From: Gammaproteobacteria bacterium
GTDB taxonomy: Bacteria; Pseudomonadota; Gammaproteobacteria; GCA-001735895
Assembly: GCA_024224415.1 (NCBI GenBank)
Contig: JAAENK010000235.1
Location: forward strand, 1-45,229
Reading direction: 5' to 3'
DNA: 45,229 bases
Shown: piece by piece, positions 543-45,229 of the stretch
Layout of the letters: each line of letters opens with the position of its first letter
How positions within the stretch are numbered: the first letter of the stretch is position 1
Made by a program: the position numbers and the translations under genes
The notes under the pieces: model-generated
Database searches by the model: none
Seen by the model: the letters and a program-made list of their open reading frames with translations, nothing else
What the model was told of the DNA's origin: nothing

Positions 543-1124
543 TTAGTTAGTATCTATCGTGTGGAGATATTTTTCTATCGTGAAAATATGCTCATCCTCC
601 ACACCCATGTTCCGCAACGAATCTGCCAGTTCTAGCAGGTAATCGCTGTTAGTTCCACTGGGGCCTTTGGCGGTGGCGATTTGATACGCAATATCGTATT
701 CACTGGCCTCACCCAGGTAAGCATCATTGTCGCTGGTGGCAATATAAACCAGGCCCGTTTCTGACGTCTCGTCCTCGAATGCCATAGTGATGCTTAAACG
801 CAGATAACCATTTTTTTCCCGAACATCGAGCCACTCAAAAACTGAAGCTTCGACCTTATAAGCAACACCATGACAGATAGCGCCAGCCTCTTCGATGAGC
901 GTGACCACTCGACCGGGACTGGATTCGGTGCCTCGGTGATCGTGCGAACCCTGCCAGAAACGTCTGCTCCAACCTCTAATACTTGCTGTTTTTGATTCGA
1001 TGTAGGGAAAGTCGACCAGGTAAATCAATGAACCGTAACCGAATAGCCAGACTTCTTCACCCTCGGTGAGTTGGCATTGGCGCTGGTTGTGTTCGAAGGT
1101 ATTGACAGACATGAGCTTAGGCAT
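543..1124 (-). CDS. gamma-glutamylcyclotransferase, ChaC-like
   Basis: Motifs WLFGYGSLIY, RFWQGSHDHRGTESSPGRVVTL, GVAYKV typical of ChaC/GGCT family. Confidence 0.85.
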   Translation of the reverse strand: MPKLMSVNTFEHNQRQCQLTEGEEVWLFGYGSLIYLVDFPYIESKTASIRGWSRRFWQGSHDHRGTESSPGRVVTLIEEAGAICHGVAYKVEASVFEWLDVREKNGYLRLSITMAFEDETSETGLVYIATSDNDAYLGEASEYDIAYQIATAKGPSGTNSDYLLELADSLRNMGVEDEHIFTIEKYLHTIDTN

Positions 1125-2631
1125 TCACCGAAATCTCACGCGAGCGGCGCTCAATATATTCTAGCAAGGCATCATCAAGTGCGTCATCAATCGCCGGTGC
1201 TTCATATTTCTCCAGCCATTTTTTAGCCTTTTGCACGCCAACGGTTTCGCTATCCTGGCGCCCATCAATCTCCCATTGTTCAAAAGGACTATTGTGCTGT
1301 GAATCGAAGACATATAAATTACTATTGAGGGTATGGATTTCACCAAGAAAATGTCCAGCCGGACCGACTTTTTTGGCTAGCTCGAAAACTTCGTCGATAT
1401 CGCTGAAATCAGGGCCCTGTAGGAAATGATAAAATGCGTCGAGTTGTTCGAAGTCGATCATGGTTTTGCCGTAGCCGACGGTGAGGGAACCTTCTAGCAT
1501 TCCACCCGCCATGCTGAGCCAGTTAGCGTCAGATAACATGCTCGGGAACAGTCCCCACATCGAATCGTAGGCGGCTTGCATATCGCCTGTTTTTGACGTT
1601 GCGACGTTTAGAATCGCACGATGCGGTACTTTGTAATAACGCGCCATCGCGCTGGAGAGGAACTGTACCATTGCCGAATCGGGCGAGCCATGCACGGGGG
1701 CACCGCTATTGAGCGCCACAGTCATGGCGGGTACGCCAAATATCATCGGTGAGCCCGGGCGTATTATTTGTGCCAGAGCCATTGCCATCAGGGCTTCGGC
1801 CAAAACCATGCCAACAGTGCCGACATTGCTTGCCGGTGTACTGGCTGCTGTCATGGAAAACGGTGAGCACATCACCGCCTGATTGTTGCTGGCGTAAACC
1901 TTGAGAGCGTCGAGCATGGTTTCATCCCAGACCAGCGGTGAATTGGCATTGATGAGTGATGTGGTTACGGTATTGTTGCTTGCAAACTCGTCACCGAATA
2001 CGATGCCCATCATTGCCATGGTGTCTTCAGCACGACTGCGTGAAGTAACATTTCCGATGACAGGTTTGTCCGAATATTTTAGCCCGCTGTAAGCCATGTG
2101 CATGTGACGGTATGGCACCGGGATATCGACTGGCTCGACGATAGGTCCTCCGGCAATATGTACGGTAGATGCCATGTGGTTGAGTTTTTGCAGGTTATTC
2201 AGATCATCAAACGTAGCGTAACGACGTACGCCCTCCATATCGCGTACGAACGGTGCACCGTAAGACGGCGAAACTACCGCGTGACCATCCCCAACTGTTG
2301 CAGAGCGTTCCGGGTTGCGTGCGTGATGCGTGAATGATGATGGAATTTTGCCGATCAGTTCGAGCAGTTCTTCGCGACCAATTTTGACCCGTTGATCGTC
2401 GATTTCGGCACCAGTTTGTCGCCAGTAGTCGAGAGACTCTTCATCCTGGAAATCACAACCGATCTCCTCGACAACACGCATGGCGAATTCGTGGATACGT
2501 TCTACACCCTCGGCATCGCAGACTTCCATGATCGGAATCTTGCGCTGAATTTCCGAGTGGTGTTTGACGGCAGCACTTGCCAATGCAGCACGACGGTCTT
2601 TGCTGCCGCCGGTTCGGCGTCGTGTCGTCAT
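1117..2631 (-). CDS. trimethylamine methyltransferase (MttB) superfamily protein, non-pyrrolysine type
   Basis: MttB-like sequence (VEEIGCDFQDEESLDYWRQTGAEIDDQRVKIGREELLELI..., PSYGAPFVRDMEGVRRYATFDDL); continuous 504-codon ORF without an in-frame amber. Confidence 0.85.
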   Translation of the reverse strand: MTTRRRTGGSKDRRAALASAAVKHHSEIQRKIPIMEVCDAEGVERIHEFAMRVVEEIGCDFQDEESLDYWRQTGAEIDDQRVKIGREELLELIGKIPSSFTHHARNPERSATVGDGHAVVSPSYGAPFVRDMEGVRRYATFDDLNNLQKLNHMASTVHIAGGPIVEPVDIPVPYRHMHMAYSGLKYSDKPVIGNVTSRSRAEDTMAMMGIVFGDEFASNNTVTTSLINANSPLVWDETMLDALKVYASNNQAVMCSPFSMTAASTPASNVGTVGMVLAEALMAMALAQIIRPGSPMIFGVPAMTVALNSGAPVHGSPDSAMVQFLSSAMARYYKVPHRAILNVATSKTGDMQAAYDSMWGLFPSMLSDANWLSMAGGMLEGSLTVGYGKTMIDFEQLDAFYHFLQGPDFSDIDEVFELAKKVGPAGHFLGEIHTLNSNLYVFDSQHNSPFEQWEIDGRQDSETVGVQKAKKWLEKYEAPAIDDALDDALLEYIERRSREISVNA

Positions 2632-2634
2632 GAT

Positions 2635-3504
2635 TTAGCCCAGCGGTTCTAGGCTGGCAGCGAGAGTTTTTTCTTCGTCTGCGCTAAGCGGTGTTAAAGG
2701 ACGACGTACAGCCCCACCATCGAAACCACGTTGGCGAGAGGCCGACTTCACTTTGGCGATATAGTTGCCAGACCATGCGTAGAGCAAGGATGGGACCATG
2801 CTTTCCCACAAATCCAATGCGCCATTGAAGTCACCCGTTGAAACCAGTTGGTATAGACGTACACATTCCTTTGGCATGTAGTTTGCGGCACCCCAGATAG
2901 CACCGGCGGCTCCAGCCATGAATGCGAATACGGTAGTTGGATCTGCACCGTTGAGCACTTTGTAACCGGTTTGAATATACGCCTGGTGAGTCGCCAGATC
3001 ACCTGCGCTGTCTTTGATGTAATTGAAATTCGGCAACGTGTTTAAGCGTTGAAACAATTCGACGGAAATACCAATACCAGTAGTTTGCGGGATGTTATAA
3101 CCGATAATGTCTGTGTTTACCGCAGCATCGACCGTGCGATAAAACTCGTATAGTCCGTTGTCGTCTTCCGGGCCCTCGAGATAAGGCGGTAAAATCATCA
3201 AGGCGTCTGCACCGAGGCCTTCGGCATGCCTTGAGCGTTCGAGTACTTCATCGACGTTCAGTGCCGATGTCTGGCAAATTAAATTACAACGACCATCGAC
3301 CCGCTTCGCGCCAATCTCATAAAGTTTGTTACATTCGATTTGTGTCAAATATGGATGTTGTCCTGTGCCCGCACCGAGCACCAGCCCCTGAACACCGCTA
3401 TCGATATACAGGTCGATGAGCTCTTGCCAGCGGGTATAGTCGATACTGCCATCCTCGAACATCGGCGTTTGCATCGCCAGATTAATACCTATTAAGTCAC
3501 TCAT
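2635..3504 (-). CDS. dihydrodipicolinate synthase / N-acetylneuraminate lyase family protein
   Basis: DHDPS-like TIM barrel with YNIP tyrosine motif and FNYIKDSAGD Schiff-base lysine. Confidence 0.85.
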   Translation of the reverse strand: MSDLIGINLAMQTPMFEDGSIDYTRWQELIDLYIDSGVQGLVLGAGTGQHPYLTQIECNKLYEIGAKRVDGRCNLICQTSALNVDEVLERSRHAEGLGADALMILPPYLEGPEDDNGLYEFYRTVDAAVNTDIIGYNIPQTTGIGISVELFQRLNTLPNFNYIKDSAGDLATHQAYIQTGYKVLNGADPTTVFAFMAGAAGAIWGAANYMPKECVRLYQLVSTGDFNGALDLWESMVPSLLYAWSGNYIAKVKSASRQRGFDGGAVRRPLTPLSADEEKTLAASLEPLG

Positions 3505-3507
3505 AAG

Positions 3508-5499
3508 TTATATCCTCAGGCCGACTTTACGACCATCGTGAAAAGCGTAGGGCGCTTGCCGCGGTGCGGCCGCATCGCCGACTACATGAAATTTGATATC
3601 ACTCTCAGCAAGTGCGAGCTCGACATCGTTGTTTACGCGATTGGTGGTTGCCGTGACGATGGCCGATGCCTCGATGGTTTCGACCGAGCCGTCAAGCAGG
3701 GAGCGAACCTCTGCTCGATCACCGTGCCAATGGCTAATGACCGACTCCAGCTTAAAGTTGGCGCCCAGTTTCTTCAAAGAGGAGCGGATCTGAGAATCTG
3801 ATGTGGTGCGTGCGAGTTCCCTGCCGATCATCGGATCCGGCGTGATAATGGTGACATCGTGACCCTTATCGGCCAGGTGCCAGGCAGTACCAGCACCGCG
3901 CCAGTTGCCGCCTTCGTCGAGTACTATGACAGATTTACCGAGTTTGGCCTGGTCGCGGAAAACTTCTTCGCAGGCGTACACCTTGCCATTTTCCAGCCCC
4001 GGTAATTGCTCGGCTTCGGGTAACCAGCGTTGCTGCGCGAATTCGTCGGGTAGCGAACCGGTGGCGAGTACTACTTCATCTGCGCCAAATTCGAGAATGT
4101 CAGTTTCATCCATCGGTGTGAAGTACTGCACCTCGACACCGAGTTTTTCGAACTGGCGTAAATACCAACCGATAAGTTCGATAACTTGCCCCCGTCTTGG
4201 CGCCAGCCCGGCAAGACGAAATTGTCCACCGAGGTCACCGAGTGCTTCGACCAATGTGACCCTGTGACCACGTTCGGCGGCGACGCGCGCGGCTTCCATA
4301 CCGGCCGGCCCGCCACCGATTACCAGGACTTTTTTCGGTGTATCGGATTTGGTAAAGCGATCACCACCCCACTCAAATTCACGCCCTGCAGATGGGTTAA
4401 TCAAACAGGAAATCCAGTAATCGCGCGAACGTCTGCCCCAGCACATCTGGTTGCAGGAGATACAGCCACGGATATCGTCTTCGCGACTGGCGCGGGCTTT
4501 GTTGACCCAGTGCGGGTCGGCGATCTGCCCACGCACGATGGAGACCAGGTCGGCATCACCGCTGGTGATTGTGTAACTGGCATTTTCCGGCGTGCGAATA
4601 TGGCATTCGGCGGTAATCTGGATCTGCTTGACTACCGACTTTAATGCTGCGGCGAGTGGTACGCCCTGTTTTTCGCCGTAGACAAAGGTCGCCATGAGGC
4701 GATCATAATCGACATAATTGCCAGCCCCGCAACTGACATAATCAACATTGCCGCCGGCGTCGTGCAGGGCGATGACTTCCTGCAGTTGCTCCAGCGACAT
4801 GATGTAGGGTGTTTCTTCAGAAAAGCTGATCGACATACCGATGATGAAGTCTTCACCGCAGGCCTTTCGAATTGAATTGACAATCGACATCGACAGGCGA
4901 CAACGGTTCTCTAACGAACCACCCCACTGGTCGTCGCGTTTATTCGACCAGGGTGTCCAGAATTGATCGAGCAAGGCGTTATAGGCGGCGAATAGATCGA
5001 CACCGTCAAAACCTGCGGCCTGGCAGCGCTTTGCAGCCAGCGTGAAGCATTCGATAACTTCGAAAATTTCACTCTCACGCATGCTGTGGCTGCCGTCAGA
5101 ATCGTGATACGAGGCCAGCCCAGAAGGCCCCCAGTGCGGCATGAAGGACAGGTCAGAATCACCGTGCTGGCCGACGTGATAAAGCTGTTGCACGATGGTG
5201 CTATCATGCGCGTGAACCGCGTCGGTGATCTTGCGAAAATGAGGAATCACTTCGTCATCACAATGACGGAAATTACCGCGTGTCAACACTGCGGTCGGGT
5301 GTACCGGCATGGGTTCAACCACGATCATCGCCGCACCGCCAATGGCGCGTTCTTCATAGTAGGCGCGATGACGCTCGCCAGGTAAGCCGAGGTCGGACAT
5401 GTTGGCGGTATGCGCGCCGAACACGATCCGATTTTCCAGTGTTCTATGGCGCAGTTGTAAAGCGTCAAACAGGGCGGGATAGTGAGTCATGGTCATCAT
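3508..5499 (-). CDS. FMN/[4Fe-4S]/FAD oxidoreductase of trimethylamine dehydrogenase / dimethylglycine demethylase (DgcA) / 2,4-dienoyl-CoA reductase family
   Basis: N-terminal OYE barrel, C-x2-C-x3-C-x11-C cluster motif (CISCNQMCWGRRSRDYWISC), GGGPAGMEAARVAAERGHRVTLVE FAD/NAD domain. Track ORF extends to 5571, but internal ATGs at 5499/5496/5490 are more plausible starts given the divergent gene at 5583. Confidence 0.85.
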   Translation of the reverse strand: MMTMTHYPALFDALQLRHRTLENRIVFGAHTANMSDLGLPGERHRAYYEERAIGGAAMIVVEPMPVHPTAVLTRGNFRHCDDEVIPHFRKITDAVHAHDSTIVQQLYHVGQHGDSDLSFMPHWGPSGLASYHDSDGSHSMRESEIFEVIECFTLAAKRCQAAGFDGVDLFAAYNALLDQFWTPWSNKRDDQWGGSLENRCRLSMSIVNSIRKACGEDFIIGMSISFSEETPYIMSLEQLQEVIALHDAGGNVDYVSCGAGNYVDYDRLMATFVYGEKQGVPLAAALKSVVKQIQITAECHIRTPENASYTITSGDADLVSIVRGQIADPHWVNKARASREDDIRGCISCNQMCWGRRSRDYWISCLINPSAGREFEWGGDRFTKSDTPKKVLVIGGGPAGMEAARVAAERGHRVTLVEALGDLGGQFRLAGLAPRRGQVIELIGWYLRQFEKLGVEVQYFTPMDETDILEFGADEVVLATGSLPDEFAQQRWLPEAEQLPGLENGKVYACEEVFRDQAKLGKSVIVLDEGGNWRGAGTAWHLADKGHDVTIITPDPMIGRELARTTSDSQIRSSLKKLGANFKLESVISHWHGDRAEVRSLLDGSVETIEASAIVTATTNRVNNDVELALAESDIKFHVVGDAAAPRQAPYAFHDGRKVGLRI

Positions 5500-5582
5500 T
5501 CGTTGCCTTGAAGTGATTAATATACCTATTGTGGCCAGATGAGCAAAACGATATATTTCCAGAAACCTCATAGATATCCGTA

Positions 5583-6806
5583 ATGAAACTAAAAGACATC
5601 AAAACCTGGGTAACCGTACCACCAACAGGTATAGGCGGTTCATTCTGGGTTCTCACCAAGCTCACCACCGATAATGGCATCGAAGGCATTGGTGAGTGTT
5701 ATGGTATTCCGGTGTCGGGTGATATCTCCTGCGCGATGGTGGAGGATACCTTCCAGCGTTTTATCGCCGGGGAAGATCCGCACAATATTGAGACAATGTT
5801 TCGGCGCGTGTATTCAGCCGGTTTCACGCAGCGCCCTGATGTTAGCATGATGGGTGTATTCAGTGGTATCGAAATCGCGATCTGGGATATCCTCGGTAAG
5901 GCCCACGACGTGCCGGTTTATCAACTGCTTGGTGGTAAGTTTCATGATCGGCTCCGTACCTATACTTATTTATATCCCAAAGATCTGACGCCCGGTGCAG
6001 ATGCACCCGATGTCTATCACGATGGCGATGCTGCAGCCGAGCGCGCGCTCGAGTATGTCGAGATGGGTTTTACCGCGATCAAGCAGGATCCGGCCGGGCC
6101 TTACAGTTTTCAGGGCGGGCGTGAATTGTCATTACACGAACTCTCACGGAGCGAATACAATGTCAAACGCATTCGTGAAGCGGTAGGTGATAAAGCCGAT
6201 ATTCTGTTTGGTACGCACGGGCAGATGACCACGTCCTCGGCGATCCGGTTGGCGAAACGTCTGGAGCCATATGACCCCCTGTGGTTTGAAGAACCCTGTC
6301 CACCGGATCAGATGGCGGCTATCAGTAAGGTCGCCGAGGCGACATCGATTCCAGTCGCTACCGGTGAGCGCTTGACCACCAAAGTTGAATTCCACGAGGC
6401 GCTAAAGGCAGGTGTATCGATTTTACAGCCCGATATAGGACGTAGTGGCGGTATTTGGGAAACCAAAAAAATTGCCATTATAGCTGAATTATTTAATGCT
6501 CAGGTAGCACCACATATTTACTGCGGGCCGATTGCACACGCCGCTGCCGTCCAGGTTGCGTTTAGCAGCCCGAGTTTCCTGATACTGGAAACCATCCAAA
6601 CTGATTTTCACGATAATATTTTGCAAAAACCACTGATCTGGGAAGCGGGGTACATGCCCGCGCCAGATAAGCCGGGTCTCGGAATAGAGTTAAACGAAAA
6701 AGTGATCGAGGCGCACCCGTATAGCAGTGGTGGACGTCTGCATCTGGAAATGTGTCAGACGGTGCTCGATTCGAATAATCAGAAGACGATTGATGAGATT
6801 TCGTAG
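5583..6806 (+). CDS. mandelate racemase/enolase superfamily protein, acid-sugar dehydratase-like
   Basis: Enolase-superfamily motifs: WFEEPCPP, VATGERLTTK, QPDIGRSGGIWE, and THGQ and APHIYCGP histidines as in galactonate/mannonate dehydratase-like members. Confidence 0.85.
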   Translation: MKLKDIKTWVTVPPTGIGGSFWVLTKLTTDNGIEGIGECYGIPVSGDISCAMVEDTFQRFIAGEDPHNIETMFRRVYSAGFTQRPDVSMMGVFSGIEIAIWDILGKAHDVPVYQLLGGKFHDRLRTYTYLYPKDLTPGADAPDVYHDGDAAAERALEYVEMGFTAIKQDPAGPYSFQGGRELSLHELSRSEYNVKRIREAVGDKADILFGTHGQMTTSSAIRLAKRLEPYDPLWFEEPCPPDQMAAISKVAEATSIPVATGERLTTKVEFHEALKAGVSILQPDIGRSGGIWETKKIAIIAELFNAQVAPHIYCGPIAHAAAVQVAFSSPSFLILETIQTDFHDNILQKPLIWEAGYMPAPDKPGLGIELNEKVIEAHPYSSGGRLHLEMCQTVLDSNNQKTIDEIS

Positions 6807-6814
6807 AAACCCCG

Positions 6815-8320
6815 TTACTGATGCTGTCTCTGACGTTTGTTAGCAACCCCACAACGTGAAGATGTTTTGGTTTGTCCAAAAGGAGGCTGTCCTTTCAATC
6901 CCGAACGTTGGTAATCAAGCAGCAGCAACGGCAATAGTACCGGCTCCGAATCTGGTTGGTTTTTAACACTTATCGAATAAACAAGTTCAAACAAACGTTT
7001 CAGGGAAATTTTCCAGGTACTCCCTGCAGCCAGGTAAAGCACATCGCTGAGTTGTAAAAACTGATGGAATGCATTATCACCAAGTAACAATGGCAAGGTA
7101 TTTTTAAAACGCCCCGAGTTGGCTATCATGCCCCAGAAGCGGGCGAACCGATTGACACGCTGCATGGTATCGAAATCAATTTTTTCGGTACTTAAAATAT
7201 TATAAGGCGCCTTCGGGTTATAGCGCATAACGCCAGATTGCGTATGCCGGTTGATCGGTGCGCCACGCAAGCGTTTGAGTATACCGAGCTGGATTTCCTG
7301 CGGTTCCAGCGCTACCAGCTGATTGAAACTTTCGGCAAAATTTTCCATGCTGTCACCGGGCAATCCAAAAACCAGATCCGCATGGATATGCGCACCGGTG
7401 TTTTCACGCAGCCACCGCAGATTATTTCTGGTTTTTTCATTGTCCTGCTTACGGCTGATTAAAGCTTGAATTTCGGAATCGAAAGTTTGCACACCGATCT
7501 CTAATTGAAGTGATCCCTGTGGGAATTTAGCAAGGACTTGTTTTAACAGGTCTGGCAACAGGTCTGGAACCACTTCGAAATGCAAATATAAATCATCACT
7601 CATTCGCGCCAGGAAAAACTCAAGGATTGCGACGCTGCTGCTGACTTTTAAGTTAAAGGTGCGGTCGATAAATTTGAAATTCCGAGCGCCCCTCTGGTAT
7701 AACAAATCCATTTCGATTAAAAATTTTTCCAGATCGAAAGGCTTCGCAGTTCTATCCAGCGCTGACAGACAAAATTCGCATTTGAACGGGCAACCACGTG
7801 ATGCCTCGACATATATAAGGCGATTACGAATGTCTTCTTTATTGTAGTAAGCATAGGGCAGGGTTAAGCTATTGAGCGCTATTGGCTCGCCAGTAATTAT
7901 TCGATCCAGGGGTTGCTTGTTTTCGATTATTTGTGAACAGAGCTTGTAGAAGCTGGTTTCGCCCGGCCCTGTAATTACATAGTCGACCACTTTTGTGAGG
8001 GACGGTAGATCCTCAGCAAAACTGACTTCCGGGCCACCGACAATAATTTTTATTTGCGGTGCGACTTGTTTGAGCAGATTGATAACATCAGTAATTTCTT
8101 CGATGTTCCAGATATAAACACTAAAGCCGATAATTTTTGGTTTATAGCTCAACAGTTGCTCGGCAATATCAATGGGCCTTTGTTGAATAGGAAATTCACA
8201 CAACTGAGCACGAGTCTGCAAGTCACCCAGGTTGGCATAGAGATATCGTAAGGCAAACGCCGTATGCATATAGCGAGCATTCAGCGTGCTGAGTAAAATT
8301 TCGACTGGCATTGGTATCAC
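6815..8320 (-). CDS. B12-binding-domain radical SAM protein (DUF4080-type C-terminus likely)
   Basis: EASRGCPFKCEFCLSALD radical SAM CxxxCxxC, N-terminal B12-binding-like region (PKIIGFSVYIWNIEEI, IIVGGPEVSF). Confidence 0.85.
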   Translation of the reverse strand: MIPMPVEILLSTLNARYMHTAFALRYLYANLGDLQTRAQLCEFPIQQRPIDIAEQLLSYKPKIIGFSVYIWNIEEITDVINLLKQVAPQIKIIVGGPEVSFAEDLPSLTKVVDYVITGPGETSFYKLCSQIIENKQPLDRIITGEPIALNSLTLPYAYYNKEDIRNRLIYVEASRGCPFKCEFCLSALDRTAKPFDLEKFLIEMDLLYQRGARNFKFIDRTFNLKVSSSVAILEFFLARMSDDLYLHFEVVPDLLPDLLKQVLAKFPQGSLQLEIGVQTFDSEIQALISRKQDNEKTRNNLRWLRENTGAHIHADLVFGLPGDSMENFAESFNQLVALEPQEIQLGILKRLRGAPINRHTQSGVMRYNPKAPYNILSTEKIDFDTMQRVNRFARFWGMIANSGRFKNTLPLLLGDNAFHQFLQLSDVLYLAAGSTWKISLKRLFELVYSISVKNQPDSEPVLLPLLLLDYQRSGLKGQPPFGQTKTSSRCGVANKRQRQHQ

Positions 8321-42339: not shown

Positions 42340-43205
42340 ACCTCGTAAACTGGCCCAGTCTGTGTGAAATGATGGCACTACACACGAAAGACTTTTCCGC
42401 CACCAGGGTGCATGGCGGTAACATCAATGAAGCCTGGCATTTGAGTGCCGGTCAACATTCATTTTTTGTTAAAACCAATCATCACAGTCGCCTGGCGATG
42501 TTCGAGGCTGAACAAAAAGGCCTGATCGAAATTCAGGCTAGCAGCGCCATCCGTGTGCCAGTAGTTTATGGTTGTGGTATCGATGGTGATCATTCGTTTA
42601 TATTGATGGAATACCTTAACTTGTCGGGCGGTATAAACGAGCGCATATTCGCTCAACAACTGGCGGCGATGCATAATCACACCAACAACCAGTTTGGATT
42701 CGAAATAGACAACACCATCGGCACCAGCCCGCAAACCAATCGATTTACAGCTAGCTGGGTAGATTTCTGGTGTGATCAGCGGTTGGGGTTGCAGTTAAAG
42801 CTGGCGAGGGAGAATGGGCTGGACAATGGCCTGATCGATGCGGGCGAGCGTCTGAATGAACGAATACAGGTTTTCTACAGCGACTATCAACCCGTGGCTT
42901 CGTTGCTACACGGAGATCTGTGGAGCGGTAACCAGGCTGCGGATGACAGGGATAATCCGGTAATATTCGACCCCGCCTGTTACTACGGCGATCACGAAAC
43001 GGACCTGGCGATGATGGAATTATTCGGCAGGCCCAGTCGGCAATTCTTCGATGTATATCATGAAGTCTTTGCTATCGACAGAGGTTATTCCATACGGCGC
43101 GACCTCTACAATCTCTACCATATCCTCAATCACGCCAATTTATTTGGCGGAGACTACGCCGCTTCAGCGCAGCGTATGATCGATACTTTACTGGCTCAGA
43201 CCTGA
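42336..43205 (+). CDS. fructosamine kinase / ketosamine-3-kinase family protein
   Basis: VHGGNINEAWHL, FVKTNHH, SLLHGDLWSGNQ, PVIFDPACYYGDHETDLAMMELFG. Confidence 0.92.
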   Translation: MNLVNWPSLCEMMALHTKDFSATRVHGGNINEAWHLSAGQHSFFVKTNHHSRLAMFEAEQKGLIEIQASSAIRVPVVYGCGIDGDHSFILMEYLNLSGGINERIFAQQLAAMHNHTNNQFGFEIDNTIGTSPQTNRFTASWVDFWCDQRLGLQLKLARENGLDNGLIDAGERLNERIQVFYSDYQPVASLLHGDLWSGNQAADDRDNPVIFDPACYYGDHETDLAMMELFGRPSRQFFDVYHEVFAIDRGYSIRRDLYNLYHILNHANLFGGDYAASAQRMIDTLLAQT

Positions 43206-44233
43206 CGACGACGTGATCTGCGTGATTTGGATCTTGCAGTTACCTGATGCTGACCCTGTGCCTGGGCTTTAGTGCCGTCGCTGACCTCACCGAGTACACG
43301 TTCTACGTCCTCCAACGTCGGTGCATTACCGGGTGGTGTCGAATCCAGAGCATGGCGCATGGCGGCGACGTGTGCTGGCGAGGTGCCACAACAGCCGCCG
43401 ACGATACGCGCCCCTGCATCACGCGCCATGACGGCATAGTTGGCCATAATTTCGGGCGTACCATTGTAAACAATTTTACCATCGACGAACTCGGGGATGC
43501 CGCAATTAGCCTTGGCAATAATAACAGGATCACTGCCTGCCTGGCTGGCAGATTTGATATTCAATACCACGGCAACAACTTCAGAAGCGCCCACACCGCA
43601 GTTGGTGCCGCAGGCGTGCACACCAGGTTCCAGGTTTTCATAAATTTGCATCAGGTTGGCGGCGCTGACTCCCATCATAGAGTGCCCGTTGGTATCGAGG
43701 CTCATGGTGAATACTATTGGCAACCCCGTCTGGCTGGCGCCTTGTACTGCAAATTCAACCTCTTCACGCGCAGACATGGTTTCGATCCAGAGCACATCGG
43801 CGCCACCCTGCTTGAGTGCATTGGCCTGTTCAGCAAACGCGGCCACTGCATCGTCGGGTTCGAGACTGCCCATTGGTGGAAGTAGTTCACCGGTTGGACC
43901 GATTGAACCGGCGAGGACGACTTCACGACCCGATGCCTCGATTTCCGCCTTGAGTAGTTTAGTGGCGGCGATATTTAGCTCGGCTACCCGATCCTGGGCT
44001 TTGTGTAGCTTGAGCCTAAATCTGGTACCGCCAAAAGTATTGGTTAGTACGATATCTGAACCGGCATCTATAAAGCTACGATAGTGGCGAGCAATTTTTT
44101 CCGGCTGGTCTACATTCCATAGCTCTGGTGCATCGCCACTTTGCAAACCCAGCGCAAACAAATTGGTGCCCGTAGCGCCATCGGCCAACAAAGTCTGTTT
44201 CTCGCTAAGTAATTTTTCAAATAAATTGCCCAT
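43196..44233 (-). CDS. betaine-homocysteine S-methyltransferase family protein
   Basis: LLADGATGTNLF, LTNTFGG, GTNCGVGASE, GARIVGGCCGTSPAHV zinc-cysteine motif; ATG at 44233 (MGNLFEKLL) preferred over 44290. Confidence 0.88.
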   Translation of the reverse strand: MGNLFEKLLSEKQTLLADGATGTNLFALGLQSGDAPELWNVDQPEKIARHYRSFIDAGSDIVLTNTFGGTRFRLKLHKAQDRVAELNIAATKLLKAEIEASGREVVLAGSIGPTGELLPPMGSLEPDDAVAAFAEQANALKQGGADVLWIETMSAREEVEFAVQGASQTGLPIVFTMSLDTNGHSMMGVSAANLMQIYENLEPGVHACGTNCGVGASEVVAVVLNIKSASQAGSDPVIIAKANCGIPEFVDGKIVYNGTPEIMANYAVMARDAGARIVGGCCGTSPAHVAAMRHALDSTPPGNAPTLEDVERVLGEVSDGTKAQAQGQHQVTARSKSRRSRRRQV

Positions 44234-44311
44234 ATATTTTGCCCCGTTTTGAAGGTCTGCACTAATAGCATAGTAAAAACTGGTTGACATTGTAGCATCA
44301 AATACTAAGAT

Positions 44312-44343: not shown

Positions 44344-45229
44344 ATGCATGATCTCGACACATTACTTGTGGGTTTACGCGCCGCCGGAGAGCATACGCGG
44401 TTACGAATTCTCGCCTTATGCTCCAGGGGAGAGTTGAGTGTTTCCGAGCTGGTACAGATACTGGGCCAGAGTCAGCCACGAGTCTCGCGGCATCTGAAAT
44501 TAATGGTCGAAGCCGGTTTGCTGGAACGACTACCCGAGGGCTCGCAAGTTTACTTCCGTCTTTCAGACTCCGCGATGGCATCAAAAATAGCACATGTCCT
44601 GGCATCGTTGATACCCGAATCCGATGCGGTCCTGAACCGGGATTTATCCCGCTTATATCAGGTACGCGATGCACGAGCACAAAAAGCCCAGAACTATTTT
44701 CAGCAAGTTGCTAAAAACTGGGACAGTATCCGTTCCATGCATGTAGCAGAGCAGCAGCTCGAACAAGCGCTTTGCGAAGTGGTCGGAGATGATTTCAATG
44801 GAGATTTGCTCGATATCGGCACCGGTACCGGGCGTATTCTCGAGCTGTTTGCTGAACGTGTCAGGCGAGGCGTCGGTGTCGATACGAGCAATGGCATGTT
44901 AGCGGTGGCGCGCAGCAATCTGGAATGCGAGAACAGGCAGCATATTCATGTGCGCAAGGGAGATATGTATCAGTTACCCGTCGATGATGACACATTTGAC
45001 CTCGCTATTCTGCATATGGTTTTACACTATAGCGATAACCCTGCCGAAGTCATTCGCGAAGCTGCTCGAGTATTGCGTCCCGGAGGTCGGCTTATTGTGG
45101 TCGACTTCGCCACCCACACAGAAGAATACTTACGCAGCGATTACCAGCATCACCGACTGGGTTTTGCCGATACCGAGATCAGCCAGTGCTTCGAATCAGC
45201 CGGTATCAGGGCTCAGTCGAAAATACGAC
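44344..45229 (+). CDS. ArsR-family regulator fused to SAM-dependent methyltransferase, partial (runs off right edge)
   Basis: N-terminal HTH (RLRILALCSRGELSVSELVQILGQSQPRVSRHLKLMVEAGLLERLPEGSQVYFRL) and C-terminal MT motif (LLDIGTGTGRILELFAERV...FDLAILHMVLHY). Confidence 0.9.
   Translation, partial: MHDLDTLLVGLRAAGEHTRLRILALCSRGELSVSELVQILGQSQPRVSRHLKLMVEAGLLERLPEGSQVYFRLSDSAMASKIAHVLASLIPESDAVLNRDLSRLYQVRDARAQKAQNYFQQVAKNWDSIRSMHVAEQQLEQALCEVVGDDFNGDLLDIGTGTGRILELFAERVRRGVGVDTSNGMLAVARSNLECENRQHIHVRKGDMYQLPVDDDTFDLAILHMVLHYSDNPAEVIREAARVLRPGGRLIVVDFATHTEEYLRSDYQHHRLGFADTEISQCFESAGIRAQSKIR

Follow-up and report, generated by a model that had tools for sequence, protein, structure and literature searches.

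A candidate MttB-OYE module for demethylation of proline-type betaines on a gammaproteobacterial contig

Gene layout and conservation in the genus

The DNA analyzed here, which we call the window, is the entire 45,229-bp contig JAAENK010000235.1 of a marine gammaproteobacterial genome (3.07 Mb, 347 contigs, 87% complete) whose near relatives are gammaproteobacterial metagenome-assembled genomes. Judged by gene spacing, it contains a tight minus-strand operon of three genes. These encode a flavoenzyme of the OYE/FadH type with flavin mononucleotide (FMN), 4Fe-4S, and NAD(P) domains (OYE; 3508 to 5571), a 289-residue class I lyase or dehydratase of the DHDPS family (DHDPS; 2635 to 3504), and a 504-residue, non-pyrrolysine methyltransferase of the MttB superfamily (MttB; 1117 to 2631). 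A fourth gene, on the plus strand at 5583 to 6806, is divergent from these and encodes a 407-residue enolase-superfamily protein of a galactonate dehydratase-like branch (ENO). An original prediction, made from the sequence, had given positions and strands for these four open reading frames (ORFs) and for a fifth, which proved to be a ChaC-family gene, and all five are where it put them. Its spacings were also correct: 3 bp between OYE and DHDPS, 3 bp between DHDPS and MttB, an 8-bp overlap between MttB and ChaC, and 18 bp between ChaC and an ORF at 3 to 524. The window spans its contig completely, which puts the operon's downstream end close to the contig edge.

As called, the OYE ORF probably includes about 25 extra codons at its 5' end. 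Its relatives, about 660 residues in length, begin at approximately residue 27 of the query, and AAGG lies 6 nucleotides ahead of an ATG near 5499. The true start is probably at about 5490 to 5499, so that the divergent gap to ENO would be about 80 to 90 bp (5500 to 5582 from the corrected start) and not 11 bp. A promoter and terminator scan gave signals no better than those in shuffled sequences.

Conservation was examined in 31 genomes of the genus (G000 and G185 to G214). ENO is present in 30 (82 to 92% identity in the other members), OYE in 23, an MttB orthologue in about 21 (at least 77% identity), and a DHDPS orthologue in about 12 or 13. Wherever both are on one contig (16 genomes), OYE and MttB are next to each other. 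Seven of the 16 have DHDPS between the two; in the other nine, which have no DHDPS there, 16 to 220 bp separate OYE from MttB. Whenever DHDPS is on the same contig as OYE and MttB, it is between the two. Co-occurrence of OYE and MttB gave a Fisher p value of 0.006, which is only indicative because the genomes come from related species and their counts are not independent. Most exceptions to this co-occurrence fall at contig ends, and G192 is a genuine exception. It has an OYE orthologue (77%; locus L205, contig C105) without an MttB orthologue or DHDPS, and a distant MttB (27%) lies about 0.9 kb away. OYE and ENO are neighbors in 17 of the 18 genomes with both on one contig, separated by 12 bp to 4.2 kb, and are 11 kb apart in the remaining one. 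Both the OYE/ENO and the OYE/MttB arrangements are far beyond chance, although these counts, too, come from related species.

The original prediction expected the orthologues to be co-localized. This holds for MttB and OYE, but ENO also occurs in all eight genus genomes that lack OYE, including three that are 96 to 99% complete (G196, G199, and G201). A beta-lactamase-family hydrolase gene lies within a few bases 3' of ENO in 25 of the 30 genomes, and, where seen, an EamA transporter gene comes next. Ahead of ENO, most genus members have a LysR gene, often followed by a short-chain dehydrogenase/reductase (SDR) gene, at the site of the OYE/ENO intergenic region. The hydrolase has no match in the window genome. 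ENO relatives of 55 to 60% identity in other taxa are found without MttB or OYE nearby. From names read from the sequences, rather than from a family search, we take their neighbors to be GMC oxidoreductases, HIBADH-type dehydrogenases, aldehyde dehydrogenases (ALDH), and zinc alcohol dehydrogenases. Because it is normally coupled to the hydrolase and is present without OYE, ENO looks like a unit of its own, in most relatives LysR-(SDR)-ENO-hydrolase-EamA. An enolase-superfamily step in the same pathway, as the original prediction had it, is not borne out.

The operon enzymes and their relatives

MttB matches PF06253 over its full length (positions 1 to 499/500; E = 2.7e-158), and its 504-codon frame has no in-frame TAG amber codon. 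Its TIGR02369 score is 193 bits, against a cut-off of 525. In a maximum-likelihood tree, the genus MttB groups with the MttBs of loci that have the OYE subfamily described below, a hydroxyproline-branch enolase-superfamily member (MR), or DHDPS with a DAO oxidase. A 98.5/100 split separates it from an MtgB-like side that holds the clade of the Sinorhizobium meliloti pSymB cluster, so it does not group with the glycine betaine type, MtgB. The OYE-linked MttBs of three loci (L182, L183, and L187) fall on the MtgB-like side, so OYE is not bound to one MttB clade. A different paralogue in the window genome, on contig C266, is a 65% match to the S. meliloti pSymB (mtg-type) cluster and about 40% identical to the window MttB.

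There is no corrinoid protein gene in the operon. Contig C73 of the window genome encodes an MtgC-like corrinoid protein (237 residues), a MetF C-terminal protein, MetF, an MtgD-like protein (302 residues), and RamA (676 residues), which are 55 to 74% identical to the S. meliloti pSymB cluster proteins where compared. The window itself has a minus-strand gene at 43199 to 44290 for a betaine-homocysteine S-methyltransferase family protein, a Bmt/MtgE homologue (NF005718, 468 bits, cut-off 338; 51% identical to S. meliloti Bmt). This protein probably serves that corrinoid methyl system in trans. None of the PF02607 matches in the window genome (87% complete) is a full-length MetH ORF, which fits a methionine synthase of the split type. 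Genomes of the genus have up to ten MttB-superfamily matches each at E ≤ 1e-60. In Eubacterium limosum, a single corrinoid/activase set serves several MttBs (PMC8604678). A corrinoid protein shared by several MttBs has also been proposed in marine bacteria, which have up to seven MttB genes, most with unknown substrates (PMC12478193).

OYE matches Pfam Oxidored_FMN and Pyr_redox_2, with the FMN barrel and NAD(P) domain present and the 4Fe-4S motif (C-x2-C-x3-C-x12-C) intact. Its subfamily forms a clade apart from both HpbA and FadH (100/100). Because of this separation and an identity of only about 33%, we reject OYE as the N-methyl-L-proline demethylase HpbA, with which it does share a DQFW[ST]P motif that is absent from FadH. 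Trimethylamine dehydrogenase (TMADH) is also rejected, because OYE has Thr (in GAHTANM) at the position of the 6-S-cysteinyl FMN cysteine, which is Cys30 in TMADH. Among solved structures, 2,4-dienoyl-CoA reductase scores highest (236 bits), followed by TMADH (190 bits). Therefore, the earlier description of OYE as DgcA/TMADH-like is approximate: the protein belongs to a clade of its own and scores nearer to FadH than to TMADH. Of the NCBIfam models, OYE scores best with one for a mycofactocin-linked FadH/OYE family, though not above its cut-off. HpbA-like proteins also score best on this model, so the match is no argument against a demethylase.

Outside the genus, the OYE subfamily (56 to 61% identity) is found in Rhizobiales, at loci that also have betaine ABC transporters, MttB, HpbA, hydroxyproline-branch enolase-superfamily members, DAO oxidases, and Pyr2C/P5C reductases. 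A tblastn search of plasmids found relatives of up to 60% identity in Rhizobium, Sinorhizobium, Ensifer, and Mesorhizobium. Among 399 genomes of the phylum, with neighbors called by best match within about 10 kb, the subfamily occurs in seven non-genus genomes at eight loci. MttB is at six of the eight and an HpbA-like gene (61 to 72%) at five. Those lacking MttB have betaine-type ABC transporters together with Pyr2C/P5C reductases or with DHDPS, DAO, and ALDH. Two of the eight have a hydroxyproline-branch MR, for which the closest model is cis-3-hydroxyproline dehydratase (below cut-off) and in which a beta-6 Lys can be read. Individual loci of OYE relatives vary. One has annotated genes for a glycine-betaine solute-binding protein and formaldehyde dehydrogenase. 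Another has a proline/glycine-betaine ABC transporter, P5C reductase, and an Ldh-family reductase, and a third has such a transporter with two DHDPS-DAO sets and ALDH. A fourth has MR, LysR, and a ProX-type ABC transporter, with MttB about 10 kb away. On Aminobacter plasmid pAA02, a single run of genes encodes MttB, an ABC solute-binding protein, a corrinoid protein (75% identical to that of the window genome), MR, OYE, and P5C reductase.

DHDPS (Pfam DHDPS, E = 9.7e-50; PPYLEGP subfamily) scores 150 bits with TIGR00674 (dapA), below the cut-off of 206. The Schiff-base Lys and the Tyr are kept, whereas DapA residues Arg138 and the first Thr (Thr44) are absent. We therefore reject DapA, 4-hydroxy-tetrahydrodipicolinate synthase, as its identity. 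The nearest relatives (62 to 64%) are on Agrobacterium and Sinorhizobium plasmids, located after a DAO oxidase gene. Their companions include SDR, ALDH, ProXVW-type transporters, a DMGDH-like enzyme, electron transfer flavoprotein, and folD/purU, and on S. meliloti pSymA also a proline racemase family gene. In two genus members, G188 and G209, a related DHDPS (36 to 38%) adjoins a proline-racemase-superfamily gene. In G188 this gene is a 4-hydroxyproline epimerase (NF010578, 546 bits, cut-off 376), and a DAO gene lies between it and the DHDPS gene. DAO, DHDPS, and ALDH are published companions of 4-hydroxyproline epimerase (PMC4113996). A neighborhood of this Pyr4H2C-deaminase type (DAO, epimerase, and ALDH) is seen in part around the 62 to 64% and 36 to 44% relatives and is not found in the window.

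Related genes turned up elsewhere. Proline racemase superfamily matches above cut-off are present in 28 of the 31 genus genomes, and a trans-3-hydroxyproline dehydratase of the window genome scores above cut-off. An HcnABC/SoxAB-like trio on contig C283 was considered as a candidate D-hydroxyproline dehydrogenase. A DAO gene downstream of ENO in other species, a candidate for the missing oxidase, is only about 23 to 30% identical to the DAO genes beside DHDPS. At two loci from other gammaproteobacterial families (L213 and L214), MttB is beside DHDPS and DAO, and L213 also has ALDH and a hydroxyproline-branch MR. This second arrangement suggests hydroxyproline-betaine catabolism that relies on MttB.

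A possible route for betaine demethylation

Demethylation of a quaternary amine is very probably the reaction class of this locus. With somewhat better than even confidence, we propose that MttB-(DHDPS)-OYE forms an aerobic module by which a quaternary ammonium carboxylate loses both of its N-methyl groups, and that this carboxylate is most likely a betaine of the proline type. On balance, proline betaine is the favored substrate, or 4-hydroxyproline betaine where DHDPS is present. The original prediction of breakdown of an N-methylated carboxylate, with hydroxyproline-betaine catabolism as a precedent, gains support from the proline/hydroxyproline-betaine-like loci in which relatives of OYE, DHDPS, and MttB are found.

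By analogy with the enzyme families, MttB would move the first N-methyl group from the quaternary amine to the shared MtgC-like corrinoid protein encoded elsewhere. RamA would keep the corrinoid protein active, and MtgD would hand the methyl group to tetrahydrofolate. The OYE-type flavoenzyme would then oxidatively strip the second methyl group from the tertiary amine. A DAO-type oxidase encoded elsewhere may oxidize the demethylated hydroxyproline, after which the DHDPS-family enzyme would dehydrate and deaminate the imino acid via a Schiff base.

Several observations weigh against this proposal. The window operon has no DAO, ALDH, transporter, or epimerase gene. DHDPS is absent from about half of the genomes with MttB-OYE, so a hydroxylated substrate would not be general. 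The full-length proline-racemase-superfamily gene found in the window genome (87% complete) is of the trans-3-hydroxyproline type, not a 4-hydroxyproline epimerase. An HpbD-like enolase member was not detected in that genome, which has only two enolase-superfamily genes, neither of them HpbD-like. MttB is only 40 to 45% identical to its nearest relatives outside the genus, which is too distant for substrate transfer. Finally, HpbA often co-occurs with the OYE subfamily in Rhizobiales, so OYE is not simply the N-methylproline demethylase.

An alternative, unlikely though not negligible, keeps the mechanism but has another quaternary amine as substrate: glycine betaine, carnitine, gamma-butyrobetaine, a homarine-like compound, or a new osmolyte. 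DHDPS would then act on some unrelated keto acid or imino acid. In favor of this are the MttB members known for several quaternary amines (PMC8604678), the multiple paralogues of marine genomes and of this genus (see above), and some loci of the OYE subfamily that show only a betaine solute-binding protein, isochorismatases, and fdhA. However, proline-ring enzymes (HpbA, Pyr2C/P5C reductase, the DAO-DHDPS-ALDH set, and the hydroxyproline-branch MR) recur beside relatives of OYE and MttB, and the paralogue that matches the mtg-type cluster is not the window MttB. We consider it improbable that a single N-methylated, hydroxylated acid passes through MttB, OYE, DHDPS, and ENO, as originally predicted, in the manner of an Entner-Doudoroff-like dehydratase and aldolase. 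The divergent pairing of ENO and OYE, the SDR gene between them in many genomes, and an aldolase-like YNIPxxTG motif in DHDPS fit such a pathway, but the occurrence of ENO without OYE and its tie to the hydrolase do not, and DHDPS is found between OYE and MttB, never with ENO. That OYE is an ene-reductase or dienoyl-CoA-type reductase, leaving MttB as the sole demethylase, is very improbable: its scores with solved relatives and NCBIfam models lean that way, but it is repeatedly beside MttB and betaine genes in two classes, and it has the motif of HpbA that FadH lacks.

Our preferred reading, an MttB-OYE module for proline-type betaines, resembles three known systems in part. A Rieske enzyme serves as a demethylase in the hydroxyproline-betaine (Hpb) pathway. 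Like the window, that hydroxyproline-betaine/proline-betaine pathway, which includes HpbD, the Rieske demethylase, and HpbA (Zhao 2013 and Kumar 2014, as they are cited in PMC4113996), combines an enolase-superfamily member with a demethylase of the OYE type and a deaminase of the DHDPS family, and relatives of the window OYE adjoin HpbA. However, the window locus has MttB in place of the Rieske demethylase, no HpbD, no HpbA, and an OYE from a separate clade. The second system is MtpB of E. limosum, a proline betaine:corrinoid methyltransferase of the MttB superfamily (as cited in PMC8604678). Going by that description and not by sequence, MtpB and the window MttB are alike as non-pyrrolysine members with a shared corrinoid protein and a proline-type betaine as substrate, which for the window MttB is a prediction. 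MtpB, however, comes from an anaerobe, whereas the partner of the window MttB is an oxidative flavin enzyme. The third is MtgBCDE of Ruegeria pomeroyi, which combines glycine-betaine demethylation with a split methionine synthase (PMC12478193). The window genome has homologues of MtgC, MtgD, RamA, MetF, and Bmt/MtgE, but its mtg-type MttB is another paralogue, on C266, and not the one in the window.

Each enzyme family, MttB-type proline-betaine demethylation in an anaerobe, and the Hpb pathway in aerobes have been published. A literature search that covered few subscription journals found no description, in Gammaproteobacteria and Rhizobiales, of an aerobic MttB clade paired with a separate OYE subfamily, and no direct precedent for the gene combination or for homarine catabolism. 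We tentatively suggest that Gammaproteobacteria of coastal sediments and sponges, as well as Rhizobiales, have a previously undescribed B12-dependent aerobic route for (hydroxy)proline betaine. In this route, MttB may replace the Rieske demethylase, and a new OYE subfamily other than HpbA may remove the second methyl group, perhaps from the cis-4-hydroxy-D-proline form. Betonicine and proline betaine are present in Antarctic marine microbial communities (PMC10579395). Many MttB paralogues of marine and soil genomes have unknown substrates, and the MttB clade, OYE subfamily, and hydroxyproline-type genes together give a concrete substrate prediction that can be assayed. If it is true, B12-dependent osmolyte demethylation in oxic environments would reach past glycine betaine.

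The enolase-superfamily protein and flanking genes

ENO matches Pfam MR_MLE_N/C. The original prediction held that it is not a betaine epimerase, and this stands: the betaine 2-epimerase HpbD has Lys on both beta-2 and beta-6, and the beta-6 strand of ENO reads QPDIGR, whereas the MRs of loci L167 and L186 have the beta-6 Lys. ENO resembles the galactonate/mannonate dehydratase branch in scoring best with galactonate dehydratase models, in keeping the beta-3 His, and, in the window group, in keeping the Asp-His pair. However, it scores below every curated cut-off (for NF010624, 250 bits against 311). In the family alignment, the two Glu metal ligands are retained, but aligned members have Gly (GTHGQ) where DgoD has its beta-3 Asp metal ligand. 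The beta-6 Asp is replaced by Asn or Ala in many of the 55 to 60% relatives (among L019 to L098). Because of these two differences, the label acid-sugar dehydratase is unproven. Solved relatives (4e4u, 3rcy, 3t4w, 4e5t, and 4j3z) have generic names only.

ChaC (543 to 1124, minus strand; Pfam ChaC, E = 2.4e-55), a gamma-glutamylcyclotransferase family gene, was rejected as an operon member, because it sits elsewhere in the genomes of other species and is near the locus only in G195. The ORF at 3 to 524 encodes a truncated protein that is conserved in the genus and has no Pfam match; its full-length homologue at L028 has 565 residues and a P-loop-like GASAAGKSS motif. Directly 3' of ENO, at 6815 to 8320, is a gene for a B12-binding/radical SAM DUF4080 protein, with homologous genes near the locus in G195 and G192. 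At 44344 to 45228, divergent from the Bmt/MtgE homologue, is a gene for a fusion of an ArsR-type regulator and a methyltransferase.

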